Origin: Embleya scabrispora
GTDB taxonomy: Bacteria; Actinomycetota; Actinomycetes; Streptomycetales; Streptomycetaceae
Reading direction: 5' to 3'
Assembly: GCF_002024165.1 (NCBI RefSeq)
Contig: NZ_MWQN01000001.1
Coordinates: 5,332,001-5,396,000, forward strand
Length of the DNA: 64,000 nt
In this document: positions 1-13,204 of the stretch, piece by piece
How the letters are laid out: every line of letters starts with the position of its first letter
How positions within the stretch are numbered: position 1 is the first letter of the stretch
The notes under the pieces: model-generated
The model's input: the letters and a program-made list of their open reading frames with translations, nothing else
What the model was told of the DNA's origin: nothing
The model's database searches: none
Made by a program: the position numbers and the translations under genes

Positions 1-2
1 GC

Positions 3-2189
3 GTGGTGCTCACCCCCGACGACGCGGACGCGCTCGCGCCGCTGGTCGACGTGCTGAGCCAGCCCGAGGTGTTCGACCAGGTGCTCGCCGGGGTGACCGA
101 GATGCCCCGCTCGATCGCCGCCCCCGGGATGAACGTGTTCGTGCACCGGATCCGGGACGACGCGGTACAGCGGGCCCGGATACGCGCCGTGCAGCGGCTG
201 GCCGGCGCCGAGGGCGGGGTCGACGAACCCTGGCCGGAGCCGCTGGCGGCGCTGGCCGACGAGCAGGGCGCCGGGTTGGCCACCACCACCGGCGGGGTGC
301 GCGAGTGCGTGCGTCCGGACGGTGTGCTCGGGGTGCGGTGGGCGCATGCCGAGCAGGGGTTCAAGCGGGCCCAGCAGCGGCTGACCGCGCTGGCCGCGCC
401 GGTCGCGCTCTACGGCTCGGCCGGGCGGGGCGGGCGCTCGATCGACGGCGAGATCGCCGACGCGGCGACCGTGCTGCGGGACTACCGGGACCTGGTCCGG
501 CAGACCGTGGGCCGGGGCGCGGCCGGATTCGACGCGGACGGGCGGGCCTGGCTGGACCAGGTCGGCGTGGTCATCCCGGAGCCCCCCGGGCTCGGCGCGA
601 ACTCGGTGGCCGCGGCCCTGTACACCCGTACCGCCGCCGCCTTCGACCGCCCCGAGGGGCTGCGCGGGCTGGCCGAACGACTGCGCGAACTCGCCGACCG
701 GATCACCCCCGGGGCGGGCGCCGCCCGGGCCCACGAGGTGGACCAGAGCTGCTCGGACGGCTTCCTCACCCGCTACCTGCGCCCGGCCGCGTTCCCGCTC
801 GGCCCGGCCCACGTCGGCATCGTCGCCGGCCTGCTGGTCGGCGCGTTCCTGACCGCCCTGTGGCCCGCCTTCGGCGTGGCCGGCGCCGGGTTGGCGGTGG
901 TGCTCGCGCTGTTCGGATCGATCCTGATCACCGCCCGGCGCCCGGACCGCGAGGGCCGGGCCGTGCTGCCGCCCGAGGCGCTGCCGATGATCGTGGTCAC
1001 CGGCCTGGTGACCCTGGTCGGCGCGGTCTGCGGGGTGCTCGCGGGGCGGGCGTGGGATCCGCCGACCGGCGTCGGGCCGCTCGCCCTGGTGCTCGGCCTG
1101 GCCGTACTGCTCGTGCTGCCCGGCCTGGACTGGCGGTTGCGGGTGCGGCACTGGGACCACGTGCTCGGCCTGGGCGCGGCCACCCGTGCGCTGCACGGGC
1201 TGCACGGGCTGCTCGTGCGCACCGTGTGGAACGACTGGGCGCTGGCCGGCCCGCGCCGCGAGGCGGTGGACCGGGCCACCGTGCTGGCCGCGTTGCTGGA
1301 GGAGAGCGCCACACTCCTGACCGACGACGCGGCCGCGCTGGAGCGGCAGTTCACCGGCGAGCCGGCCGGACCGGACCCGGCCGCGGACACCTTCGGCAGC
1401 GGCGGTCGCCCGACCCCGGGCTTCCCCTCCGCGCCGGCGTACCCCGGCGGAGGCAATCCCGGCACCGGCGGCTACCCGCCGCCGGGGCGCCCGGTACCGC
1501 CGTATCCCGGCGCGGAGGCCTTCGGCACCGGTGCCTACCCGCCCCCCGGCCGTCCCGCGCCGCCCTCTGGCCCGCCGCCGGGCGCGGCCGGGGCGAGCCT
1601 GTACGACACCGTGCTCGGCGACCTCGTGGACGCGCTCCACGCCGCGTTCGAGCCGCTGTGGCCGCTCCTGGAGCGCGACCCGGCGGAGGTCTCCCGGCGC
1701 GGCGCGGCGCCCGAACTGCGACCCGTGCTGCGCGCGTACGCCGACCACCTCGCGCACAACGGGGTACAGGCCGCGCCGCCGTTCGGCCGGCAGGGCCAGG
1801 ACCGTCCGCACGTCGGCGAGGCGGTCGGCGGCGACGCGGACCGGATCGCCGAACTGCTCGGGCAGCCCGCGGCGCACTCGATGTTGCAGCTGTGCGCGAG
1901 CGACCAGCTGATCCTGCTCGACCACGCGCCGACGCACACCGTCAGCGTGCGCTTCGCCCCGCGCGGGGTGCGCCCCGCCGTGCGCGAGGCGCTGCGCGAG
2001 CGCCGCACCGGGCACCCGATAGAGCACGAACTGGTGTGGACCGGCGGCGGGCGGATGGCCGGCGTGTTGCGCCTGCTGCCGCTGCTGCCCGGCTCGGTGG
2101 ACGACGCGCGGATCTGGGAGGAGAGCGCCGGCGGCGCCGACCGACCCGGTGCGGGTGACGACCGGTACGACGGCGGATGGGCGCCGTGA
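3..2189 (+). CDS. Membrane protein of the GTPase-associated island (function unknown, probably 5'-partial)
   Basis: I do not recognise the family. The frame is open from the first bases, so the first GTG may not be the true start and the gene probably begins upstream. Residues 1-250 look soluble and mostly helical. Residues about 260-375 contain four hydrophobic segments in two pairs, for example AGLAVVLALFGSILI and LVLGLAVLLVLPGL. A Gly/Pro/Tyr-rich linker (about 455-530, repeated GYPPPGRP) leads to a soluble C-terminal region. The stop lies 13 nt inside the next gene, so the two are translationally coupled. Inference: it is a membrane anchor or effector for the kinase-like and GAP1-like proteins that follow. 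Confidence 0.75.
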   Translation: MVLTPDDADALAPLVDVLSQPEVFDQVLAGVTEMPRSIAAPGMNVFVHRIRDDAVQRARIRAVQRLAGAEGGVDEPWPEPLAALADEQGAGLATTTGGVRECVRPDGVLGVRWAHAEQGFKRAQQRLTALAAPVALYGSAGRGGRSIDGEIADAATVLRDYRDLVRQTVGRGAAGFDADGRAWLDQVGVVIPEPPGLGANSVAAALYTRTAAAFDRPEGLRGLAERLRELADRITPGAGAARAHEVDQSCSDGFLTRYLRPAAFPLGPAHVGIVAGLLVGAFLTALWPAFGVAGAGLAVVLALFGSILITARRPDREGRAVLPPEALPMIVVTGLVTLVGAVCGVLAGRAWDPPTGVGPLALVLGLAVLLVLPGLDWRLRVRHWDHVLGLGAATRALHGLHGLLVRTVWNDWALAGPRREAVDRATVLAALLEESATLLTDDAAALERQFTGEPAGPDPAADTFGSGGRPTPGFPSAPAYPGGGNPGTGGYPPPGRPVPPYPGAEAFGTGAYPPPGRPAPPSGPPPGAAGASLYDTVLGDLVDALHAAFEPLWPLLERDPAEVSRRGAAPELRPVLRAYADHLAHNGVQAAPPFGRQGQDRPHVGEAVGGDADRIAELLGQPAAHSMLQLCASDQLILLDHAPTHTVSVRFAPRGVRPAVREALRERRTGHPIEHELVWTGGGRMAGVLRLLPLLPGSVDDARIWEESAGGADRPGAGDDRYDGGWAP

Positions 2190-3265
2190 GCGGGGGCGCG
2201 GGGCAGGCGGGCGAGCCGTCGGCCGAGGGCAAGCTCGGCTACACCGACCCCGAGGGCTACTCGGTGGAGCGCCGGGTCGAGTTCGGCCCGGACCGGCCGG
2301 CCCCGCCCGGGCAGCCGTTCCGGATCCGCGACGTGCGCGACGTGGAGGACGGCAGCGTCTTCGTGCAGAAGCGGCTCGGGCGGCTGGACCCGCGACGCCG
2401 GGTGGGCGCCGAGGCGAGCCTGGAGACGGAGATCCGGGTGCTGCTGCGCCTGGTGCGCACCTTCGGCGGCGCCGGATATCCGCGCGAGCTGGCCCGGGTG
2501 GCCGGACACGACTTCGACGGGGTCGAGCCGTTCCTGCTCCTGGAGGCGAGCCCCTGTCCGCCCGCCGAGGACGTGGTGGGCAAACTCCTCACCGAAGAGC
2601 AGGACGCGTTCCGCCGGGCCATCTTTCGTACCGTGCGCTACCTCGAGTCGGCCGGCGTCGTCCACGGCGACCTGACGCCGAGCAGCGTGCGCTGGCAGCG
2701 CGAGCAACGCCGGCTCCAGGTGGTCGACTTCGGCCACGCGGCGCTGGCCGGCGAGCCGCGCAGCAGCCTGGGCACCGCGCTGTGGGCCGCGCCGGGGCCG
2801 CTGCGCGGGCCCGGACCGGCCGATCCGCACGACGACGTCTGGTCGGCCGCGCAGGTCGCCTACCACGTCACCACCGGACGCCCGATCCGCCAGGGCCGCG
2901 TCCCGGTCGGCGTGGAGACCCAGGGCCTGCTGCTCGACCTGTTCCAGGGCGTGTTCGAGGCGGACGCGGTACGCCGCCCGGGCGCCGCCGAACTGCTGCG
3001 CCGGCTCGGCGAACCGGACCCGTACCTGGCGGGCCACGCCCAATACGACCCGCTCGCCGAGGGGCGGCGCGGCTACGAGGCGGCGATGGAACGCAAACGG
3101 CAGCGCATGCCGCTGCCCGGACAACCGCCGCCGGCGTACCGGGCGGGCGCCGAGGACCGACCGCCGCCGGTGCTGCCGCCCAGGCCCCCGGAGCCGCCGG
3201 GCAGGCCCGGCGAGCCGCCGAGGACCGGACGGTTTCGGCTCTTCGGGAAGGACCGGATGGGGTGA
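2177..3265 (+). CDS. Atypical protein-kinase-like protein
   Basis: This 362-residue protein has a kinase-like fold in outline. There is a candidate nucleotide-binding Lys in VFVQKRL (about residue 60), a catalytic-loop motif VVHGDLTPSSV where usual kinases have HRDxKxxN, and an intact DFG in VVDFGHAAL. The glycine-rich loop is not evident. The HRD Arg is replaced by Gly and the catalytic-loop Lys and Asn are missing, so activity is uncertain. The C-terminal about 80 residues are Pro/Arg-rich (PPVLPPRPPEPPGRP) and probably disordered. The ATG overlaps the end of the preceding membrane protein by 13 nt, and the next gene starts 67 nt downstream. It may be a regulatory pseudokinase or phosphotransferase of the island. 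Confidence 0.75.
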   Translation: MGAVSGGAGQAGEPSAEGKLGYTDPEGYSVERRVEFGPDRPAPPGQPFRIRDVRDVEDGSVFVQKRLGRLDPRRRVGAEASLETEIRVLLRLVRTFGGAGYPRELARVAGHDFDGVEPFLLLEASPCPPAEDVVGKLLTEEQDAFRRAIFRTVRYLESAGVVHGDLTPSSVRWQREQRRLQVVDFGHAALAGEPRSSLGTALWAAPGPLRGPGPADPHDDVWSAAQVAYHVTTGRPIRQGRVPVGVETQGLLLDLFQGVFEADAVRRPGAAELLRRLGEPDPYLAGHAQYDPLAEGRRGYEAAMERKRQRMPLPGQPPPAYRAGAEDRPPPVLPPRPPEPPGRPGEPPRTGRFRLFGKDRMG

Positions 3266-3332
3266 ACACGACGGGCCGGGTCGGACCGGGCACATCGGAC
3301 GAGTCGAACGCGACGGCAGGTGAGGTCGGCTG

Positions 3333-5507
3333 ATGTTGCATCAGATCGTGTACCGCTGGGACCCGGACGGGCTGCTCGGGCGCCGCGGCATCGTTCCGGT
3401 CGCCACCTCGCTGGGGCGCGACGAGGTGTTCGGTTGGCACACCCGCACCGGGCTGGCCGAGGCGGTCACCATGGACTACGGCGACCCCGCCTGCCCGGCG
3501 TCCAGCGTGTGTCTGCTCGACACCCCGCTCGGAGTGGCGCTGATCCGCCGGGAGTTCTCCGCCGACGCGCGCCGCCAGCGGCTGAACAACTCCGCCCACG
3601 TGCTGGTCGGCCCCCGGGACGCGATCGCGCCGTTCGACGCGATCGCGTGGGGCTCGCTGGAGCGGCGCGCGCCCGGGGCGTTGGACCCGGACCGGGTCCA
3701 GCCGGGCTACGGCCTCAAACCGCTGCCCGACGAGCGCCTGGCCGCGGCCTTCGAGGTCGCCGCCGGCGACCTGCACGAGCGGTCCCAGCGACTGGCCGAC
3801 CCGCTCGAAGTGCTCGTCGCCGCCGTGCTGCGCCGCCCCCGGGCCCGGCTGGCCCTGCTGCCGGCCGGCGCGGAGGACGCCACCGTGCTGCTGTGGGGCC
3901 TGCAACACCTGCTCACCGCGCTGCTCCCGGGACCGTGGACGTTCTCCACCTTCGAGGTCGACGACGCGGTCGACGACCCCAACGGGGCGCCGCGCTTCAT
4001 CGCGCTGCCCCGGGTGCCGTCCGGTCCGCCCGGGCCGCGCGTCCGGGTCGATCTGACCGGCCACGGCGAGCCGTTCGACCCGCACCGCGAACTGGCCCGG
4101 CGGATCGTTCGGCACTACGTGGGCTCCGGCTGGTCGGGCTTCCACCGACTGCTCAACGTACCCACCGAGGTGCACACGCTGCCCGAGGCGGACCGGGTGA
4201 ACGCGATCCGGCAGCGGCTGGACGCGCTGGGCACCCGCCAGGAGGCCCGGACCACCCGACCGCGCGAGGAGCCGCCGGCGGGCCAGGCCTCCGGACCGGT
4301 CGGCGCCCCGCCCGGGACCGCCGGCCGGACCCCACCACCCCGCGAGCCCGCGCGCGGGGCCGGCGAGACGATCACCGTCGTCACCGCGTCCGCCGGCGCC
4401 CCGGCGGCCGATCCCACCGACTCGAATCGACCCGTGGTGCGCTGCCCCTTCTGCCTGGACCTGGTCCGCTGGAACGAGAACGACCTCTACGAGCGCGACG
4501 CCCGGCTACGCTACGAGCGGGTCGACCTGAGCACGGTCACCGACCCGGTCAAGCGGCACGACCGCATGATCACCACCTTCATGCGCTGCCCCAACCCCAC
4601 CGGCGACGAGGAGCGCGAGCACTTCCTGCCGACCAACTACATGATCCACGAACCGCCGCTGGTGGTCGGTCTCATCGGCGACGGCCTCTCGGGCAAGACC
4701 CACCTGCTGGCCGCGATGATCGCCGAGATCGACGCGGGCGGGTTGCGCCGATACGGGGTGACGCACGTGCCGGTGGACGCCGGCCACCACCAGGAATACC
4801 TGCGGGACCGGGTCGACCTGTTGCAGCGCGGACAGATGCTCGGGACCACGGTCAACCACCAGGGAAACCTCGTGCAGTTCGCCGACGCGCTGCTGCTGCG
4901 CGCGGGCGGGCGGACCCGGCCGATCGCCTTCTTCGACGTCAGCGGCGAGGACCTGGCGCGGGGCGGCAGGGAGATGCAATTCCTGGCCGCCGCGGACGCG
5001 TTCGTGTTCGTGGTGGACCCGGTGGTCGCGGTGGACCTGCCGGAGCTGCGCCGGCTGACCCGGGACGGCGAGGACACCGCGGGCCTGCGCCGGGGCGACC
5101 GCACCTTCGCCGCGGTGATGGACCGGCTGCCGCGTACGGCCGCGCTGCTCGACCAGCCCGTCGCCGTCGCGGTGACCAAGTCCGACCTGATCCGCTTCGA
5201 GCCGCCCGTGGACGCCTGGTTGGGCTCGCAGCCGCCCCGACCCGGGGTGGTGGACCCGGCCCGCACGGACGCCGAGAGCCGCGACGTGTACTCGTTCCTG
5301 TACGCGCACGACGCCGGCGCCTGGCTCAGCCCGTTCGAGGAATTCCGGCGCTGCACCATGCACTTCGTCTCGGCGACCGGCGCGCGAGAGCGGGACGGGC
5401 ACTTCCCCGGCGGCATCCGGCCGCGCCGGGTTCTGGAACCGGTGGTGTCCATCCTCGCGATGTGCGGCATGCTCGATCAGGCCGGCATCGAGCGGGTGGG
5501 GGTGTGA
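3333..5507 (+). CDS. GAP1-N2-like protein fused to a P-loop GTPase (double-GTPase type)
   Basis: This is a 724-residue fusion. The N-terminus (about 1-130) starts HQIVYRWDPDGLLG and shares the LLGxRGxxPxAxS pattern with the next two genes. The middle part (about 145-290) carries VAAVLRR, LLWGL and WTFSTFE (about 202), also shared. A Pro-rich linker follows, then a candidate zinc-binding knuckle (CPFC near 370, with another Cys near 417). Next comes a GTPase-like domain with G1 GDGLSGKT (about 447-454), G3 DVSG (about 533) and G4 TKSD (about 614), all intact. The architecture matches what I recall of the GAP1-N2/GAP1-M and DO-GTPase families of predicted bacterial conflict systems. The start is ATG behind AGGTGAGG. 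It is one nt from the next gene, so it is in an operon. Confidence 0.8.
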   Translation: MLHQIVYRWDPDGLLGRRGIVPVATSLGRDEVFGWHTRTGLAEAVTMDYGDPACPASSVCLLDTPLGVALIRREFSADARRQRLNNSAHVLVGPRDAIAPFDAIAWGSLERRAPGALDPDRVQPGYGLKPLPDERLAAAFEVAAGDLHERSQRLADPLEVLVAAVLRRPRARLALLPAGAEDATVLLWGLQHLLTALLPGPWTFSTFEVDDAVDDPNGAPRFIALPRVPSGPPGPRVRVDLTGHGEPFDPHRELARRIVRHYVGSGWSGFHRLLNVPTEVHTLPEADRVNAIRQRLDALGTRQEARTTRPREEPPAGQASGPVGAPPGTAGRTPPPREPARGAGETITVVTASAGAPAADPTDSNRPVVRCPFCLDLVRWNENDLYERDARLRYERVDLSTVTDPVKRHDRMITTFMRCPNPTGDEEREHFLPTNYMIHEPPLVVGLIGDGLSGKTHLLAAMIAEIDAGGLRRYGVTHVPVDAGHHQEYLRDRVDLLQRGQMLGTTVNHQGNLVQFADALLLRAGGRTRPIAFFDVSGEDLARGGREMQFLAAADAFVFVVDPVVAVDLPELRRLTRDGEDTAGLRRGDRTFAAVMDRLPRTAALLDQPVAVAVTKSDLIRFEPPVDAWLGSQPPRPGVVDPARTDAESRDVYSFLYAHDAGAWLSPFEEFRRCTMHFVSATGARERDGHFPGGIRPRRVLEPVVSILAMCGMLDQAGIERVGV

Positions 5508-5508
5508 G

Positions 5509-7626
5509 ATGGCAGCGGACGCGGTGGACGCCACAGCGGATCGACTGGACGAGATCGTCTATCGCTGGAGCTACGATCACCTCCTGGGCGGGCGCGGCAT
5601 GGGCCCGGTCGCCACGTCGCTGGGTCTGAGCGAACTCCGGGACTGGCACGGCGGCTTGGAGCAGCACGTCTCGATGGACCGCTCGTTGCCGGAGACCCCC
5701 GCCTGGAGCTTTTGCCGGGTACGCCTGGAGAACCGGCACGCGCTGGTGCTGCGCGAGGCCGCGGTCCACGCCGGCAACCGACCGGGAACCAACGCGCACG
5801 TCCTGGTGGACCCCGAACTCAGCGTCGGGGCGCACACGATGCTGGCCACCGCGTGGCTGCACGAGGAACGCGGCGGCGGACTCACCGGGTCCAGGACCCC
5901 GCTCGCCGAGGTGCCCGAGAACGCACCGCTGCGCGGCACCACGATCCGCCCGGAGGCGTTCGACCCGGCCATTCTCGGACAACTGCGCGAGCGGGCCCGG
6001 GCCCGGCCGGAGTTGCTGGAGGTGGTGCTCGCGGCCGTACTGCGCGACCATCACCGCACCTTCACCCTGCATCAGAACGACGTCGGCGCGGACATGGTGC
6101 CGCTGCTGTGGGGCGTGTTCGACCTGGCGCAACCGATCGCGCCCGGCATGTGGACCTTCTCCACCTACGAGACCAGCGACGCGGCGCTGAAGCCGCGATT
6201 CGTCCTGGTCCCGCGCTGGCCGAACGCGCCGGAGCCGGCCAACCGGTTGCGGATCGACCCGCGCGCCGAGCCGCAGCCGGGGCAGGACGTGTTCCGCGAC
6301 GCCGCCGGCCTGCTGGTGCAGTGGTACTGCACGCGCCCGTGGACCGAGGTGGATGCGCTGCTGGCCCGGATCGAGACGGCGATCGGCGCCGACGGGGCTT
6401 CGTATCGGGAGGTCGCCGATCTGGTGCTGGCGCTCGAATCGGACGCCACCCGGCCGGCACCGGCGGTCGCCGCCGCGCCGGAGCCCCGGGCGCCGGAGCC
6501 GCCGCGGGCCGCACAGGCCCCGCCGGCCTCGCGGGGACCGCAGGGACCGCCCGTGCCGCCCGAGTCGCAGGCCGGCGCCGAACGTTGGGAGAACGGCTAT
6601 ACGGAGACCTGGATCAACGGGAGCGAGGACGACGAGCAGGACTGCGCGGGCGAGACCGGTGGGTATCCCGAGCGGGATCGGTACGGCCGGGGCGCCGCGC
6701 CGGGATACGCGCGGCCGGGCCCATCGTCGCCCGGGCCCGGGCAGTCGGGTTCGGCGCTGTCGGGGCCCGGGCAGTCGGGTTCGGCGCCGCCGGGGTCCGG
6801 GCGGTCCGGGCAGGCCGACGCGTGGCGGGCGGGCGACGGGGCGAACCGGGCCGGGCCGATGCCGGCATATCGCCCGACGGTGGGCGGCGACGGGCCGGTC
6901 CCGCCCCGCCCGGACCGGCTCGCCCCCGTGCCGGGGGCGTCCCCCCGGCCCGAGTCCGGCTCGGGCAGCCGTCCGGTGTTGCCCCCGAACGGTCCGACGG
7001 GCCGACTCGCGCGCGGCACGTGGGACCCGGGGGAGTGGGAACGCCTGGGCGCGTCCCGCAACGGCTACGCCGCGCTGGAGGCGGCCGACGGGCTGCTGGC
7101 CCGGAGTAGCGGGCACGAGACGAGCGATTTCCGCGACGTTTTGACCAAGGTCGACTCCGCCTCGCTGGCGGTCGCGCTGCTGCTGGCCCGGCCGCCGCTG
7201 TTGGCCCCGGTGGTGTACCGGCTGGATCGGCTCCTGCATCCCGCCTACGGCGACGGCGGTCGGCCGGAGCGGCACACCAGGCAGACCTACGCGAGGGTGC
7301 TCGGCCGGTTGTCCGAGGACATCAACACCCTCGACACCTGCGGCGCCCCGAGGGAGACGCTGTGTCGGCTGGTGGAGATGGTGGCCCGGCACACCGTGGC
7401 CGAGGTCAAGCGGCCCAGATTCGGCGCCGACGTGCTGCCCACGCTGGCCGTCGACGTCGCGGGCACGGTCTGGGCCCTTCGGACGTCCTTGCGGGTGTGG
7501 GCGGATTATCAGAACGTGCTCGTGGACGTGCTGTGTTCCTCCCGCTATCGCGAGCCGTTTCTGCTCGAGATGGGGCGACTGACGGTGGAGAGCTTCCAGA
7601 CCATGCCACACAGGACGGGACCGTAG
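5509..7626 (+). CDS. GAP1-N2-like paralogue without GTPase (second copy)
   Basis: This 705-residue protein repeats the N-terminal and middle domains of the preceding gene: DEIVYRWSYDHLLGGRG at the start, LAAVLRDH, LLWGV and WTFSTYE near residue 215. It has no P-loop. Residues about 310-500 are a low-complexity Pro/Gly/Ser/Arg linker containing an in-frame duplication (GPGQSGSA twice, nt 6731-6785). Residues about 505-700 form a helical C-terminal domain. The start ATG is 1 nt after the upstream stop, and the next gene starts 2 nt after its own stop, so the three paralogues are surely co-translated. Inference: it is a partner or regulator of the GTPase-bearing paralogue. The molecular role is unknown. 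Confidence 0.8.
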   Translation: MAADAVDATADRLDEIVYRWSYDHLLGGRGMGPVATSLGLSELRDWHGGLEQHVSMDRSLPETPAWSFCRVRLENRHALVLREAAVHAGNRPGTNAHVLVDPELSVGAHTMLATAWLHEERGGGLTGSRTPLAEVPENAPLRGTTIRPEAFDPAILGQLRERARARPELLEVVLAAVLRDHHRTFTLHQNDVGADMVPLLWGVFDLAQPIAPGMWTFSTYETSDAALKPRFVLVPRWPNAPEPANRLRIDPRAEPQPGQDVFRDAAGLLVQWYCTRPWTEVDALLARIETAIGADGASYREVADLVLALESDATRPAPAVAAAPEPRAPEPPRAAQAPPASRGPQGPPVPPESQAGAERWENGYTETWINGSEDDEQDCAGETGGYPERDRYGRGAAPGYARPGPSSPGPGQSGSALSGPGQSGSAPPGSGRSGQADAWRAGDGANRAGPMPAYRPTVGGDGPVPPRPDRLAPVPGASPRPESGSGSRPVLPPNGPTGRLARGTWDPGEWERLGASRNGYAALEAADGLLARSSGHETSDFRDVLTKVDSASLAVALLLARPPLLAPVVYRLDRLLHPAYGDGGRPERHTRQTYARVLGRLSEDINTLDTCGAPRETLCRLVEMVARHTVAEVKRPRFGADVLPTLAVDVAGTVWALRTSLRVWADYQNVLVDVLCSSRYREPFLLEMGRLTVESFQTMPHRTGP

Positions 7627-7628
7627 CC

Positions 7629-9737
7629 ATGACGGCACGCACGGCACGCACGGCGCAGCCGGGAGGGAACCAGCCGCCGACCGGGGCCGAGGCGGACGGG
7701 TTCCGCCAGATCGTCTACCGGCGCCAGGACGACAGCCTGCTCGGCGGGCGCGGCCTGGGGCCGATCGCCTCCTCCGTGTCTCGGGACGAACTGCTTGGCT
7801 GGCACGACGAGTTGCGCGAGCACGTGGCGGTCGACGCGGAGGACCGGGGGGCGCCGGTGACCAGCGTCGCGCTGGTGCACACCGGTCGCGGCGCGGCGGT
7901 GGTCCGGCGCGAGTACGTGGTCGACGGGAACAACGCGCGCGTACTGCTCGACCCCGGCCGCGACCTGGGCCCGCATGCCGCGCTCGTGCTCACCCAGGAG
8001 GCCGTGTGGGCGGGGGAGCCGGCCCTGGAGGACATCCCGCGCGGCTACGGACTCGCGCCGCTGGCCCCGGACTTCGTGGCCGCCGCGCTGGACGGGCACG
8101 CCGAGCGGCTGCGCGGCCGGGCACGCGAGCAGGCCTATCTGCTGGAGGTCGCGGTCGCCGCCGTACTGCGGCACCCGGGCCGGTTCTTCTCGTTCCGCCA
8201 GGCGGACGTGGGCATCGATCCGGTGCCGATGTTGTGGGGGTTGTCCGACCTGCTGCTGTGGCTGGTGCCGGTGTCCTTCACGTTCTCCACCTTCGAGACG
8301 CTGGACCACTCGGGCAAGCCGAGGTTCGTGGTGCTGCCGCGCCGGCCGCGCGACGCGCAGCCGTGGGCGGGCCGCTACCGGTTGGTGGTGGGGGAGGAGC
8401 CCAAGGCCGGTTCGGACGTGCACGCGCATGCGGCGGCGCTGCTGGTGAGCCGGTACACCGACACCGACTGGCCGGGGATCCACCGGCTCCTGGAGGGCAT
8501 GCGCGACCTGCGGCCGCTGCCGCACGAGCGGGCCGAGGAGCGGTCCCGGGAGATCTGCGCCCGGTTGGGACGGCGGGGCTCGGGGTCCGGGTCGGGTGCG
8601 GCGGCGGTCGCGCCCGCGCGTGTGCCCCTGTACGAGCCCGCGCCGGTGCCGGTGCCCGCGCCGCCGCGCGCCGCCGCGGTCGCGCCGGCGCCGGTTCGGG
8701 ACCGGGGGCTGGCGAGCGAGAAGGCGCTGGTGGCCGCGGCGGAGCGGGTACGGCGCGGCGACGCGGCGGAGCGCGTCGAGCGGGAGCCCCGGGTGGTGAC
8801 GGTGACCACGGCCGAGGAGGAGCCGGCGTTCCCCTACCCGGCGGAGCCCTCGGCGCCCCGGGCCGCGTCGACCGTGTCGCCGCCCCGGCCGTCGCTGCCG
8901 TACTCGGCTCCGGCCGCCGCGAGTGCGGACGCCGCGGATGTGACCTGGTACGCCGACGACGGTGCGGTGTTCGAGGAGATCGAGGACGCCTTCACCGGGC
9001 CGTGGCCGGGCTTCGAGGAGGAGCGCGGCGAACTGCCGATACCCGCGCTGCCGCACACCGACGACGACCTCGACGCGGACCCGGACGCCGAACCGGGCGC
9101 GGTCGGCGGACGCGAGAGCCCGCCGACCCCGGGCACGCCGCCGACCAGCGCCGGGAACGCGCCGTGGAGCGTGTGGGCCGAATTCGGCATCCCGGACACC
9201 GAGGTGAACAAGATACGGCGCGCGGTCAAGCGTCTTCCGGACAAGCCGACGCTGCGCGAACGCGCGCTCGGCGGCGGCGCGGCCAAGACCGAGGTCGCCG
9301 CGATCGACAACATCGTCACCCTCGCGGTCGCGCTGCGGTTGGCCGACCTGCGGGTGTTGCCGGTGATCGCGGACCGGCTGACCACGCGCCTGGAACAGCG
9401 CCGCCGCCAGCTGGCCCCCGAGGCGTGGAACCCGGACGACATGCGGGCGATGCGCGAAACGGTGCTGGACGCCGAACAGTTCGGGGACCGCCTGGAGGCG
9501 GCCGGCGCGGGCGAGAAACGCACCCGCAAGCTGCTCGAACAGCTCCTCGTGGTGGTGCTGGCCCCCAAGACCGACACGAAGGGGGTGCTGCGCCAGATCG
9601 CGATCTGCGTACTCTCCGACCGCCGGGACCGCTCCCCGAACCCGCTGATCGAGGAAATCCTCCTCAACAGCCAATGGGGCGAGGACTTCCGCACCGAACT
9701 GGGCCGCCGCTGGTCCGAACAGAACCCACCCCGCTGA
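7629..9737 (+). CDS. GAP1-N2-like paralogue without GTPase (third copy)
   Basis: This 702-residue protein begins with a Thr/Ala/Arg-rich segment and then FRQIVYRRQDDSLLGGRG, the hallmark of the two preceding paralogues. VAAVLRHPGRFF, MLWGL and FTFSTFE (near residue 218) follow in the same order. A long disordered linker (about 310-510) rich in Pro, Ala and acidic residues precedes a helical, charged C-terminal domain (about 515-702) that differs from that of the second copy. No nucleotide-binding motif is visible. The ATG at 7629 is chosen over upstream in-frame codons because those lie deep inside the preceding gene. It is the last gene of the operon; the 206 nt downstream hold no gene. Confidence 0.8.
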   Translation: MTARTARTAQPGGNQPPTGAEADGFRQIVYRRQDDSLLGGRGLGPIASSVSRDELLGWHDELREHVAVDAEDRGAPVTSVALVHTGRGAAVVRREYVVDGNNARVLLDPGRDLGPHAALVLTQEAVWAGEPALEDIPRGYGLAPLAPDFVAAALDGHAERLRGRAREQAYLLEVAVAAVLRHPGRFFSFRQADVGIDPVPMLWGLSDLLLWLVPVSFTFSTFETLDHSGKPRFVVLPRRPRDAQPWAGRYRLVVGEEPKAGSDVHAHAAALLVSRYTDTDWPGIHRLLEGMRDLRPLPHERAEERSREICARLGRRGSGSGSGAAAVAPARVPLYEPAPVPVPAPPRAAAVAPAPVRDRGLASEKALVAAAERVRRGDAAERVEREPRVVTVTTAEEEPAFPYPAEPSAPRAASTVSPPRPSLPYSAPAAASADAADVTWYADDGAVFEEIEDAFTGPWPGFEEERGELPIPALPHTDDDLDADPDAEPGAVGGRESPPTPGTPPTSAGNAPWSVWAEFGIPDTEVNKIRRAVKRLPDKPTLRERALGGGAAKTEVAAIDNIVTLAVALRLADLRVLPVIADRLTTRLEQRRRQLAPEAWNPDDMRAMRETVLDAEQFGDRLEAAGAGEKRTRKLLEQLLVVVLAPKTDTKGVLRQIAICVLSDRRDRSPNPLIEEILLNSQWGEDFRTELGRRWSEQNPPR

Positions 9738-9865: not shown

Positions 9866-9889
9866 TGTCGAGATCGCGTGGCCGGCTTC
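9866..9889 (+). promoter_or_regulatory. Candidate ECF42 autoregulated promoter
   Basis: TGTCGA at 9866-9871 is followed 15 nt later by TTC (9887-9889), about 55 nt before the DGPF gene start. As I recall, ECF42 target promoters in Streptomyces carry TGTCGA in the -35 region and CGA or TTC in the -10 region. The ECF42 gene itself lies in the downstream operon, so self-activation is likely. This is a motif match by eye only. Confidence 0.45.
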
Positions 9890-9943
9890 GTCCCCGGGGT
9901 GAGCGCGACCACAATGGGCGCACCGCCTTCGAGGAGAACGATC

Positions 9944-10354
9944 ATGGCCAAGTACCTGCTGCTCAAGCACTACCGCGGCGCTCCGGCCTCGGTCAACGAC
10001 GTGCCGATGGACCGTTGGACGCCGGAGGAGATCACCGCGCACGTGGGATACATGAACGACTTCGCGGATCGCCTGAAGGAGACCGGCGAGTTCGTCGACA
10101 GTCAGGCGCTGACCCCGCAGGGGGCCTGGGTCCGGTACGACGGCGAGGGGCGCCCGCCGGTCACCGACGGCCCGTTCGCCGAGACCAAGGACCTGATCGC
10201 CGGTTGGATGATCATCGACGTCGACACCTACGAGCGCGCCGTCGAGTTGGCCGGGGAACTGTCGGCCGCCCCCGGCGCGGGCGGCAAGCCGATCCACGAG
10301 TGGCTGGAGGTGCGCCCGTTCATGAGCCCCTCGCAGCACACCATCGCGGAGTGA
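9944..10354 (+). CDS. DGPF/YCII-related domain protein (ECF42 partner)
   Basis: This 136-residue protein belongs to the YCII-related/DGPF family: MAKYLLLKHYRG at the start, VRYDGEGRPPVTDGPFAETK with the eponymous DGPF motif (about residues 81-84), and GGKPIHEWLEVRPF at the end. The start ATG has a strong GAGGAGAA ribosome site 6 nt upstream, which rules out the longer in-frame extension. The sigma factor gene follows after one base. Pairing of DGPF proteins with ECF42 sigma factors is an established genomic association. The biochemical role of the DGPF protein is unsettled (stress or antibiotic-related functions have been proposed), and the family has a ferredoxin-like dimeric fold. Confidence 0.9.
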   Translation: MAKYLLLKHYRGAPASVNDVPMDRWTPEEITAHVGYMNDFADRLKETGEFVDSQALTPQGAWVRYDGEGRPPVTDGPFAETKDLIAGWMIIDVDTYERAVELAGELSAAPGAGGKPIHEWLEVRPFMSPSQHTIAE

Positions 10355-10355
10355 C

Positions 10356-11507
10356 GTGACCACCGGCATGAACGAGACACTGCTCCGCGGCCTCACGCCG
10401 AGCGTGCTCGGGATCCTCGTCCGCCGCGGAGCCGACTTCGCGGCGGCCGAGGACGCCGTACAGGACGCGCTGGTCGAGGCGATCCGCGTCTGGCCGACCG
10501 ACCCGCCGCGGGACCCGAAGGGCTGGTTGGTCACCGCGGCGTGGCGCAAGTTCCTCGACGCGACCCGCGCGGACGCGGCCCGGCGCCGGCGCGAGGACCT
10601 CGTCGACGAGGAGCCGGCGCCCGGGCCCGCGCCCGCGGCGGACGACACGCTCCGGCTCTACTTCCTGTGCGCGCACCCGTCGCTGACGCCGTCCTCGGCC
10701 GTCGCGCTCACGCTGCGTGCCGTCGGCGGGCTGACCACCCGCCAGATCGCCCAGGCGTACCTGGTGCCCGAGGCGACCATGGCACAGCGCATCAGCCGGG
10801 CCAAGCGCACGGTCGCCGGCGTGCGGTTCGACCGGCCCGGCGATGTGGCCACGGTGCTGCGCGTGTTGTACCTGGTCTTCAACGAGGGCTACTCCGGTGA
10901 CGTGGACCTGGCCGCCGAGGCCATCCGGCTCACCCGGCAGCTCGCCGCCGCGATCGACCACCCGGAGGTCGCGGGCCTGCTCGCGCTGATGCTGCTCCAC
11001 CATGCCCGGCGCGCCGCCCGGACCTCGCCGGACGGCGGCCTGGTGCCGCTCGCCGAGCAGGACCGGGGCCGGTGGGACACCCGCATGATCGCCGAGGGCG
11101 TGGCGATCCTGCAGGCGGCGCTGGTCCGCGACCGGCTGGGCGAGTACCAGGCCCAGGCCGCCATCGCGGCGCTGCACGCCGACGCGCCGGCCGCCGAGGA
11201 GACCGACTGGGTGCAGATCGTCGAGTGGTACGACGAGCTGATGCGCCTGACCGACAACCCCGTGGTCCGGCTCAACCGCGCGGTGGCCGTGGGCGAGGCC
11301 GACGGACCACGCGCCGGACTGGCGGCACTCGCGGCGCTGGACGACTCGCTGCCGCGCCACACGGCGGTGGCGGCGTACCTCCACGAACGCGACGGCGACC
11401 CGGCGACGGCGGCACGGCTGTACGCCGAGGCGGCCCACAAGGCCGGCAACCTCGCCGAACGCAACCACCTGACCCGCCGAGCCGCCCACCTCAACGCCCT
11501 TCGCTGA
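10356..11507 (+). CDS. ECF42-type RNA polymerase sigma factor with C-terminal TPR-like extension
   Basis: This 383-residue protein has a sigma-2 region (about 10-75: ADFAAAEDAVQDALVEAI, PKGWLVTAAWRKFLD) and a sigma-4 region (about 105-160: SAVALTLRAVGGLTTRQIA, ATMAQRISRAKRTV). A long helical C-terminal region of about 200 residues follows (DUF6596/TPR-like, VRLNRAVAVGEADGP). Length and architecture match ECF42. The GTG start lies 1 nt after the stop of the DGPF gene. In this group the C-terminal extension, rather than an anti-sigma factor, is thought to control activity, and no anti-sigma gene is adjacent. Autoregulation through the promoter at 9866-9889 is likely. Confidence 0.93.
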   Translation: MTTGMNETLLRGLTPSVLGILVRRGADFAAAEDAVQDALVEAIRVWPTDPPRDPKGWLVTAAWRKFLDATRADAARRRREDLVDEEPAPGPAPAADDTLRLYFLCAHPSLTPSSAVALTLRAVGGLTTRQIAQAYLVPEATMAQRISRAKRTVAGVRFDRPGDVATVLRVLYLVFNEGYSGDVDLAAEAIRLTRQLAAAIDHPEVAGLLALMLLHHARRAARTSPDGGLVPLAEQDRGRWDTRMIAEGVAILQAALVRDRLGEYQAQAAIAALHADAPAAEETDWVQIVEWYDELMRLTDNPVVRLNRAVAVGEADGPRAGLAALAALDDSLPRHTAVAAYLHERDGDPATAARLYAEAAHKAGNLAERNHLTRRAAHLNALR

Positions 11508-11541
11508 CCGCGGAGCGGGAATGGGGTGTGGGGTCGCCGCC

Positions 11542-11958
11542 GGTCCTCATGCGCCGGACGGGCTGGGGGTCGGCTCGCCTGTGCCCGATGCCGGATCGGT
11601 GGCGGGTTGGCCGGCCTGCGGCCCGCTGGTCCTCAAGCGCCGGACGGGCTGGCTGTGCGCTCGCCTGTGTCCGATGGCCGTCCGGCGGCGTGTCGGCCGG
11701 CCTGCGGCCTGCTGGTCCTCATGCGCCGGACGGGCTGGGTTTTGGTTCGCCTGTGCCCGATGCCGGGCCGGTGGCGTGTCGGCCGGCCTGCGGGCCGCTG
11801 GTCCTCAAGCGCCGGACGGGCTGGGGTTTGTGGTCCGAGCGTTTTTGGTTCGGCCTGCGGGCCGCTGGTTCTCAAGCGTCGGGCGGGCTGGGGTTTGTGG
11901 TCCGAGCGTTTTTGGTTCGGCCTGCGGGCCGCTGGTTCTCAAGCGTCGGGCGGGCTGG
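11542..11958. repeat. Six-copy spaced tandem repeat (25-nt core, 86/67-nt period)
   Basis: A 25-nt core that begins GGTCCTCAAGCGCCGGAC and ends GGGCTGG recurs at 11542, 11628, 11714, 11800, 11867 and 11934. The first four starts are exactly 86 nt apart and the last two steps are exactly 67 nt. The blocks 11825-11891 and 11892-11958 are identical 67-nt units, so they are a recent duplication. Copies vary at CTCAAGCGCC / CTCATGCGCC and, in the last two, TTCTCAAGCGTCGGGC. The core resembles an intergenic repeat common in Streptomyces genomes. The array fills most of the 611-nt gap between the sigma factor and tyrA, which otherwise holds no convincing gene. Confidence 0.9.
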
Positions 11959-12118
11959 GGTTTGTGGGCGGAGCGTTTTGGCTTGGGTTGGTTCGGTTTT
12001 CGGGCGGGGTGGGTTTTGGCTCGTCTGTGTGCCGGATCGGCGGCGGGCGGATCCGTTCGATGGGTCGGGTGGCGGGGTTGGTTGGGTGACCGTTTCCGCC
12101 GGTGATGGACCTCGGGGG

Positions 12119-13204
12119 TCAGCGTTGTACCGTCCAGCCGCTGTTGCGTAGGGCGAGGGTGAGGGCGTCGGCGCGTTGGGGGGCGACCTGGAGTTCGACC
12201 AGGCCGGCCGGGCGGCCCTGGGCGTGGTCGATGCGGATGTCCTCGATGTTGACCTCGGCGCGGCCGACGTCGGCGAAAAGGCGGGCCAGTTCCCCCGGGC
12301 GGTCGGGGACGACCACCGGGATCGCCTCGTAGACGGCGGCCGGTTCGCCGTGCTTGCCAGGAATCCGCGCGTGGCCGGCGTTGCCGCGCCGCAGCAGCGC
12401 CTCGATGCCGCGCGTGCCCACCTCGCGCTTGGCCGCGTCGTCGGCCGCCAGCGACCGCAACGCGCCCACCACGGCGTCCAGATCGCCGGCGAGGCCCGCC
12501 AGCACGTCGGCCACCGCGTCGGCGTTGGCGCCCAGGATGTCGATCCACAGCCGCGGGTCGGAGCCCGCGATCCGGGTCACGTCCCGCACCCCCTGCCCCG
12601 CGAGCCGGGTGTCGGTGTCCTGCGCGTGTTCCAGCCGCGCGGCCATCAGCGCGGACACCAGGTGCGGCGCGTGCGACACCAGCGCCACCGCGTGGTCGTG
12701 GTCGCGCGGCTTCATCACCACCGGTACGGCGCGACACAGCGACACCATCTCCAGCGCCCGGTTGAGCGTCTCGGTGTCGGTCTCCCGCGAGGGCGTGAGC
12801 ACCCACGGCCGCCCCTCGAACAGGTCGCCGCGCGCCGCCAGCGGCCCGGAGCGCTCCCGCCCGGCGAGCGGATGCCCGCCGATGTAGCGCCCGAGGTCGC
12901 AGCCCAGCGCGGCGACCTCGGCCAGCGGCTGCTCCTTCACGCTCGCCACGTCGGTGTAGCTCAGCGCCAACCGCGACTCCTGTACCTGCCGCAGGGTTTC
13001 CGCGATCCGCCCCGGCGGCACCGCGAGCACCGCCAGGTCCACCGGTTCGGCCGGCGCCGCGTCGAGGCCCGCGCCCATCGCCGCCGCCGTCTGCACCGCC
13101 GTCTTGTCGTGGTCGCGCAGATACACCGTGACCCCGCGCGAGGTCAGCGCGAGCGCGACGGATGTGCCGATCAGTCCGGTGCCGACCACGGCGGCGGTAC
13201 GCAC
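12119..13204 (-). CDS. tyrA: Prephenate dehydrogenase
   Basis: This 361-residue protein catalyses NAD(P)+-dependent oxidative decarboxylation of prephenate to 4-hydroxyphenylpyruvate in tyrosine synthesis (cytosolic). The N-terminal Rossmann motif is VVGTGLIGTSVALAL (residues 6-20). The family's substrate-site region is IGGHPLAGRERSG (about 112), followed by VSHAPHLVSALMA. An ACT domain at the C-terminus (about 290-345, IPVVVPDRPGELARLFADVG) suggests allosteric feedback control. The start is GTG with GGAG 8 nt upstream. It is divergent from cmk, with a 178-nt shared promoter region. The tyrA-cmk-plsC-der neighbourhood is conserved in streptomycetes. Confidence 0.95.
   Translation of the reverse strand: MRTAAVVGTGLIGTSVALALTSRGVTVYLRDHDKTAVQTAAAMGAGLDAAPAEPVDLAVLAVPPGRIAETLRQVQESRLALSYTDVASVKEQPLAEVAALGCDLGRYIGGHPLAGRERSGPLAARGDLFEGRPWVLTPSRETDTETLNRALEMVSLCRAVPVVMKPRDHDHAVALVSHAPHLVSALMAARLEHAQDTDTRLAGQGVRDVTRIAGSDPRLWIDILGANADAVADVLAGLAGDLDAVVGALRSLAADDAAKREVGTRGIEALLRRGNAGHARIPGKHGEPAAVYEAIPVVVPDRPGELARLFADVGRAEVNIEDIRIDHAQGRPAGLVELQVAPQRADALTLALRNSGWTVQR

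Follow-up and report, generated by a model that had tools for sequence, protein, structure and literature searches.

An enlarged operon related to GAP1/DO-GTPase/tubulin systems, with three paralogous GAP1-like proteins, in Embleya scabrispora

The 64,000-nucleotide stretch of the Embleya scabrispora genome analysed here (hereafter the window) opens inside a compact island of genes (positions 3-9737), and this island is an enlarged form of a six-gene actinomycete operon. The operon encodes a membrane vWA protein, a tubulin-like protein, a membrane protein with four transmembrane (TM) helices (4-TM protein), a kinase-like protein, a GTPase with a zinc-ribbon-like site, and a GAP1-like protein; in Embleya the first of three GAP1-like copies forms a fusion with the GTPase (protein C), and two more follow it (proteins D and E). 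GAP1/DO-GTPase systems have been proposed to serve a role in conflict (Kaur et al., 2020; PMC7159879), and by sequence comparison the Embleya operon is best regarded as a subtype that is sister to the GAP1/DO-GTPase/tubulin systems described in the parts of that paper available to us. That it is a divergent system of this class is highly probable. The explanation as a whole, in which an envelope-anchored sensor would act through a GTPase switch and a GAP1-like platform on membrane assembly of the tubulin-like protein, has in our estimate a probability of about 0.55. As far as literature searches show, this class of systems has been proposed from computation, and the Embleya locus is a clean, testable case: the gene order is fixed, fusions hint at contacts, and nature supplies an experiment, in the form of two GTPase-less paralogues with strongly unequal divergence and of related species in which a pair of this kind persists without the GTPase. 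The operon, which links a receptor-like membrane protein with a tubulin-like protein and a GTPase, is widespread and little studied, and the Embleya pattern is in keeping with a predicted role in defence or stress.

The gene-neighbourhood survey that the original prediction had called for recovered these genes together. Loci were collected by searching named genomes with the GTPase alignment (the 80 best of at least 126 confirmed; Streptomyces dominates), and in 66 of the 80 all six genes are present and identically ordered. Of the remaining 14, 12 are short of upstream genes only and lie at contig ends with less than 4.2 kb before the GTPase match; L114 and L121 lack the GAP1-like gene. Component matches were obtained for the vWA protein in 68 loci, the tubulin in 68, the TM protein in 73, the kinase-like protein in 77, the GTPase in 80, and the GAP1-like protein in 78, always downstream of the GTPase. 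These are counts of six-frame profile matches; the simple gene finder used for the flank surveys often picked wrong-strand frames. Because the profiles were iterated over the same loci, match scores are inflated, and gene order is unaffected. Fusion of the GAP1-like domain and the GTPase in one frame occurs in Embleya and in Pseudonocardia lacus (L111). In the latter, a GTPase gene, a gene for a GAP1-like/GTPase fusion, and another GAP1-like gene stand side by side (L111:7689-13035): here the operon has been enlarged independently.

Shared motifs at the N-termini of C, D, and E had been noted in the original prediction; they are present, and phmmer searches with each N-terminus score the other two at 111-154 bits. 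When a profile was made solely from 66 genes lying directly behind the GTPase in other genera, leaving out all sequences of the window, it matched C at 3.5e-49, D at 4.1e-45, and E at 1.6e-39. As judged by these matches, the three N-terminal domains are one family, termed GAP1-like here. The C-terminal domains of the two GTPase-less copies had been described as different from each other; they are in fact homologous (hhalign probability 97.9, E 6e-13, score 87.6, with 30 shuffles at or below 23.0). A profile of the D and E tails matched none of the 67 tails of GAP1-like proteins from other genera at E<=10, and neither D nor E has a match to Pfam GAP1-C.

Searches with hidden Markov models, also proposed earlier, matched DO-GTPase2 to C, and the GAP1-N2 model matched none of C, D, and E. 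The window's own genome gave no match to Pfam GAP1-N2 at E<=0.01 and one weak match outside the island at E up to 1. Four other Pfam families each matched a single member of a set of 46 GAP1-like domains (best PqqD, 0.00078), and these matches were taken as chance. In profile-profile comparison, the 46 GAP1-like rows aligned with 32 canonical GAP1-N2/M rows at a probability of 95.8 (E 8.1e-9, score 68.4) across 222 columns starting at the first residues; 40 column shuffles scored at or below 15.7, and four other operon families at or below 21.3. Since the score lies far above shuffles and unrelated families, the GAP1-like domains appear homologous to GAP1-N2/M. The signal was weaker in smaller sets (16 Embleya and Yinghuangia rows against 8 canonical rows: probability 7.4, score 28.3, P 0.0048, 30 shuffles at or below 18.4); 46 diverse GAP1-like rows raised the probability to 86.7, and 32 canonical rows then raised it to 95.8. 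The 46-row alignment (A2) consists of 43 of 78 GAP1-like relatives, picked for diversity, and the three window copies, with L072 left out (broken frames, matched as fragments only). The canonical set holds 24 of 29 loci of a wider collection (five partial matches excluded) and eight of nine earlier ones (weak L043 excluded). This kinship supports the GAP1-like domain as a divergent relative of GAP1-N2 and GAP1-M outside the present Pfam family. The GAP1/double-GTPase reading of the island was thus right in substance, through DO-GTPase2 and the profile-profile kinship, and lacks a match to Pfam GAP1-N2.

A search of the PDB with the GAP1-like profile returned a single weak match (E 0.022). By a crude scan, a predicted TM helix ends 50 of 70 complete GAP1-like genes of these 80 loci. 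D and E have no terminal TM helix; in C, D, and E alike the scan marks a single internal hydrophobic stretch, taken as a putative buried helix. GAP1-like genes were detected in at least 30 of the 296 genomes surveyed in the class (E<=1e-5), a lower bound because seven candidates per genome were scored, and most of these matches were counted without a check of the rest of the operon. Canonical GAP1-N2 was found in 31 of the 296, and the two are not mutually exclusive, since 12 genomes hold both. The locus indicates that the GAP1 family reaches further than current profiles detect, and such operons are therefore probably under-annotated in Streptomyces and its relatives.

The GTPase is confined to the first of the three copies, as had been claimed, with a match to Pfam DO-GTPase2 (PF19993) at 4.7e-9, above the cut-off. 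Its G1, G3, and G4 motifs are intact (GDGLSGKT, DVSG, and TKSD), with key residues invariant in nine aligned sequences, its own included. In the same nine sequences, the Asp, Gly, and Glu of the Walker B-type motif are invariant, and so is the predicted zinc site (CxxC...C...H) before the P-loop. The zinc site is assigned by pattern alone, and Pfam zinc-ribbon models have no match in C. Similarity of C to its relatives extends past the DO-GTPase2 domain to the protein end, and a PDB search with the GTPase alignment matched only P-loop stretches.

Seven island proteins are considered here: the vWA, tubulin-like, 4-TM, and kinase-like proteins, C, D, and E. The vWA protein (864 residues) matches Pfam VWA at 7.8e-8 and has one TM helix. 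The tubulin-like protein (1370 residues) matches Tubulin_2 (PF13809) at 5e-64 on residues 16-415, followed by a long C-terminal region, and had no match in a PDB search. In a tubulin tree of 49 rows, from which 19 Streptomyces names were excluded beforehand, Embleya forms a deep branch of its own. The 4-TM protein has its predicted helices within residues 397-506. The kinase-like protein of the window retains the HxD Asp and DFG (HGDLTPSS...DFG), and Ser replaces the catalytic-loop Asn. Among 87 aligned kinase-like rows, some of which are duplicates or unrelated kinases, 69 have Gly, Ala, or Ser in place of the HxD Asp, and eight retain both the HxD Asp and the DFG Asp. Seven of 22 rows inspected retain both: the window gene, its duplicate in L010, the genes of two other Embleya genomes (G001, and G002 with DFD), and three unrelated kinases (the second of L059, L134, and L135). 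The kinase-like protein and the GTPase share one open frame in 42 of 77 loci and are separate in 35; the two therefore probably contact each other.

Paralogy of C, D, and E is evident in the tree of 89 GAP1-like sequences, where they form one clade (support 100/99) together with a GTPase-less GAP1-like pair from Yinghuangia. D, E, and the Yinghuangia pair group without C (98/92). Matching of the pair members to D or E has tree support of 86/28 and is assigned by gene order alone. All three Yinghuangia genomes have a similar pair. In Yinghuangia G020 it lies between rluB and tyrA, 56 and 93 nucleotides away (longest frames); in Embleya rluB and an inverted tyrA flank the entire island. This junction looks old, because rluB stands beside tyrA within 1.5 kb in 4 of 20 loci (L187, L192, L198, and L199). 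Three Embleya members whose contigs span the locus (G000, the window's genome, G001, and G002) have the same gene order at the same place.

Protein D is the most divergent gene product of the island. Between G000 and G002, protein identity is 97.0% for RluB, 86.7% for the tubulin, 84.6% for C, 81.1% for the vWA protein, 80.5% for the kinase-like protein, 79.9% for E, 78.5% for the TM protein, and 47.3% for D. The ratio of nonsynonymous to synonymous substitution rates (dN/dS; Nei-Gojobori) in this pair is 0.09 for rluB, 0.73 for D, and 0.24-0.38 for the remaining island genes. By domain, identity is 59% for the N-terminal domain and 39% for the tail of D, 86% and 96% for those of E, and 84% for the N-terminal domain of C. 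A mere pseudogene cluster was ruled out, the frames being intact and dN/dS below 1.

These features can be assembled into a mechanism. The vWA and 4-TM proteins would form an envelope-anchored sensor, and the kinase-like protein would be a scaffold linking membrane and GTPase, a role suggested because its relatives mostly have no catalytic Asp and 42 other loci have it in one frame with the GTPase. GTP binding would be coupled directly to the GAP1-like platform, given the separate fusions in Embleya and Pseudonocardia lacus, and it is likely that the GTPase switch acts through this domain. The switch would then trigger or release membrane assembly of the tubulin-like protein, and the outcome may be containment or dormancy when an invader enters or the envelope is damaged. 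In Embleya the platform would be hetero-oligomeric, with C as the switch-bearing subunit, E as a conserved adaptor, and D as a divergent subunit that may give specificity, an assignment for D that we regard as doubtful. An anti-invader role, as opposed to morphogenesis or stress, is an even call; uneven spread, changing location, and the divergence of D fit a conflict role without proving it. A more ambitious version seems somewhat unlikely: that a GAP1 clade invisible to current Pfam models defines its own widespread operon with a mostly dead kinase, and that Embleya has built from it a three-subunit recognition platform, with hypervariable D giving specificity driven by phage or ligand, E as conserved partner, and the pair persisting without the GTPase.

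Several results weigh against the explanation as a whole. No phenotype was found for any member of the operon. PADLOC gave no match to six of the seven island proteins, and its matches to the kinase-like protein (the kinase-bearing models PD-T4-6, mad6, MkoA, and PglW, and one borderline Cas11e model) are largely explicable by the kinase fold alone. None of the 46 GAP1-like domains matched Pfam GAP1 models at E<=0.1. In the closer pair G000/G001, D (91.1% identity, dN/dS 0.39) is not prominent in dN/dS, because the vWA protein (94.5%) equals it at 0.39. The N-terminal domain of E is hardly more conserved than that of C, and near-constancy is confined to the E tail. Synonymous divergence (dS) between G000 and G002 is also raised in D (0.65, against 0.35-0.51 in other island genes), so part of its divergence may be recombination or gene replacement. 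Finally, neither DO-GTPase nor Tubulin_2 was found in two of the three Yinghuangia genomes carrying the pair (best 150 of 203-265 candidates per genome scored; in the two negative genomes the GTPase search scored 150 first-look candidates, out of 203 in one and 208 in the other), and in the third both occur away from the pair. D/E-type proteins therefore need not act via this GTPase, and the GTPase-free pairs speak against a complex that always needs it. The earlier proposal of a complex built by duplication around one GTPase is accordingly supported for the duplication and, in these Yinghuangia genomes, not supported for strict centring on the GTPase.

The Yinghuangia pairs also raise the alternative that D and E are a separate two-gene system standing behind a GTPase operon to which only C belongs. 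The pair alone between rluB and tyrA in G020, the two genomes in which GTPase and tubulin were not found, and the grouping of D/E-type sequences apart from C favour this alternative; the 1- and 2-nucleotide spacing behind C, the order kept in G000-G002, the common clade of C, D, and E, and the usual position of a GAP1-like gene directly after the GTPase elsewhere all argue for a single operon. We consider two systems possible, on the doubtful side.

Streptomyces and the other genera in which most relatives lie are filamentous and form spores. The operon could also be a cytoskeletal or morphogenetic module without a conflict role, in which GTPase-controlled membrane assembly of the tubulin-like protein positions growth or septation. 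Its Tubulin_2 core and membrane proteins, its constant place in the three Embleya members, and the occurrence of relatives mostly in Streptomyces and other genera are in keeping with this; the uneven spread of GAP1-like genes in the class (30 of the 296 genomes, a lower bound), the changing flanks, and dN/dS of 0.24-0.73 in island genes against 0.09 in rluB are less so, and we judge it unlikely. Flanking families were surveyed with the rough gene finder, mainly in downstream flanks: none is common to more than nine loci, and five occur in at least five loci (Streptomycetaceae only). The same gene finder gave an rluB/tyrA label in none of the 80 loci. A sensor of envelope or cell-wall stress, with the vWA protein reading wall damage, the GTPase switch starting repair, and phage as one possible trigger, is similarly improbable. 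The single TM helix of the vWA protein and the 4-TM protein suit such a role, and in the parts of one source available to us DO-GTPases are tied to membrane-related stress in PSP contexts (PMC11237479). The Pfam matches of the seven island proteins include no PSP family, and a protein as divergent as D is less to be expected in a repair system.

The layout of the island in the window (Table 1) agrees with the original prediction on the five genes. All five plus-strand frames lie where they were claimed, the first (3-2189) open at the window edge, and the spacing includes the 13-nucleotide overlap and the 1- and 2-nucleotide gaps reported. A 67-nucleotide gap between the kinase-like gene and C had gone unmentioned. 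The membrane protein listed among the five is present and is incomplete in the window, its start lying before it. The operon itself begins outside the window, with the upstream order rluB, vWA gene, Tubulin_2 gene, 4-TM gene. The window sits on a 7.0-Mb contig of an 11-Mb genome.

Table 1. Coordinates of island features (window positions unless a contig is named; G000 is the window's genome).
Feature	Position	Strand	Basis or remark
4-TM membrane protein, 859 amino acids, 3' part	1..2189; full gene G000:C1:5331610-5334189, start 390 bases before window	+	
Kinase-like protein, 362 amino acids	2177..3265	+	Pfam Pkinase 1e-11
Protein C, 724 amino acids: GAP1-like N-domain fused to zinc site and DO-GTPase	3333..5507	+	
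GAP1-like (GAP1-N2/M-related) domain of C	3333..4268	+	Profile match, residues 4-315 of frame opening at 3324
Zinc-ribbon-like site of C	4443..4622	+	CxxC ... C ... H
DO-GTPase2 domain of C	4662..5192	+	Pfam match, residues 444-620
GTPase motifs of C	G1 ~4677-4700; G3 DxxG ~4935-4946, then invariant Glu; G4 TKSD ~5175-5186	+	
Protein D, 705 amino acids: GAP1-like N-domain, long low-complexity linker, C-domain	5509..7626	+	
GAP1-like domain of D	5539..6516	+	Profile match
C-terminal domain of D, homologous to C-terminal domain of E	6961..7596	+	hhalign
Protein E, 702 amino acids: GAP1-like N-domain, long linker, C-domain	7629..9737, ATG at 7629	+	
GAP1-like domain of E	7707..8660	+	Profile match
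C-terminal domain of E	9117..9725	+	hhalign

Downstream of the island, a small gene and a sigma-factor-like gene (window 9878-11507; names read from sequence) and tandem repeats whose units measure 86 and 67 bases (11537-11979) precede tyrA, which lies on the minus strand (12119-13204), opposite to rluB and cmk on the plus strand. Where G000 has the small and sigma-factor-like genes, the corresponding stretch of G002 is only some 300 bases long. In Yinghuangia G020 tyrA shares its strand with rluB, so tyrA was probably turned round in Embleya. About 6.8 kb past the window end lies a gene for a Ser/Thr kinase (HRD, DFG) with a C-terminal GAP1-like domain (G000:C1:5402811-5404901; L200:6811-8901). 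The domain matches at 2.5e-38 (1.8e-28 with the profile before iteration), and the kinase is active-looking from its motifs. This fourth GAP1-like match in the genome had been listed with internal stops; a decayed copy was ruled out, as it is one intact, kinase-fused frame. The fused kinase also occurs in G002 and at L201:5204-7165 on the minus strand. The neighbour of the L200 gene, at L200:2656-5208, encodes a kinase that bears a PQQ beta-propeller.

Known GAP1/DO-GTPase systems provide the frame for these results. Among the papers listed in searches of the open-licence literature, supplements aside, Kaur et al. (2020) was the one on these systems, and the comparisons below hold for the parts of that paper available to us. 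In the class as described there, the DO-GTPase is of the TRAFAC clade with a conserved Glu in Walker B, the GAP1 protein has GAP1-N2, GAP1-M, and GAP1-C domains, and the GAP1 gene comes right after that of the DO-GTPase or is fused to it; Tubulin_2 is also named in the parts available of a paper on FtsZ/tubulin evolution (PMC9871819). Within the GAP1-N2 class, the HSP70 theme shares the DO-GTPase and GAP1 with Embleya and differs in its chaperones: HSP70, GrpE, and DnaJ had no match among the seven island proteins. An HSP70-like gene was seen at L136 (name read from sequence). Theme 3 (kinase, PP2C, and stand-alone vWA) shares a kinase-family protein, the DO-GTPase, and GAP1. It has an active kinase, whereas the Embleya kinase-like protein has no catalytic-loop Asn; the Embleya island has neither a PP2C match nor a stand-alone vWA protein, and it has a tubulin. 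Canonical GAP1-N2 loci from the same bacterial family, Streptomycetaceae (L132-L135, names read from sequence) resemble this kinase/PP2C/vWA theme and hold a system separate from the island; L135 is in G003, another Embleya genome.

The tubulin theme is closest in composition. Both it and the Embleya operon have a DO-GTPase with an N-terminal zinc site (an N-terminal zinc ribbon is reported on 60% of the GTPases; Kaur et al., 2020), a GAP1 or GAP1-like domain adjacent or fused to the GTPase, one Tubulin_2 protein extended by a long C-terminal region, and a membrane-bound vWA protein. The vWA protein of the theme bears FNIII and a beta-rich domain, and a second FNIII protein is fused to HRDC; the Embleya vWA protein has VWA and one TM helix, and neither HRDC nor FNIII matched any of the seven island proteins at E<=1. 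The Embleya operon further differs in its kinase-like and 4-TM proteins between tubulin and GTPase and in a GAP1-like domain diverged beyond the Pfam GAP1-N2 model. Two canonical loci examined, L174 and L176, combine Tubulin_2 and GAP1-N2 with a gene resembling DO-GTPase2 that stays below the Pfam cut-off, and look like this theme; in both, GAP1 precedes the GTPase, whereas in the present subtype the GAP1-like gene normally follows it. The tubulin profile of the operon matches the canonical tubulin weakly in L176 (18 bits) and not in L174, and for this reason we place the Embleya operon beside the tubulin theme, as a sister to it.

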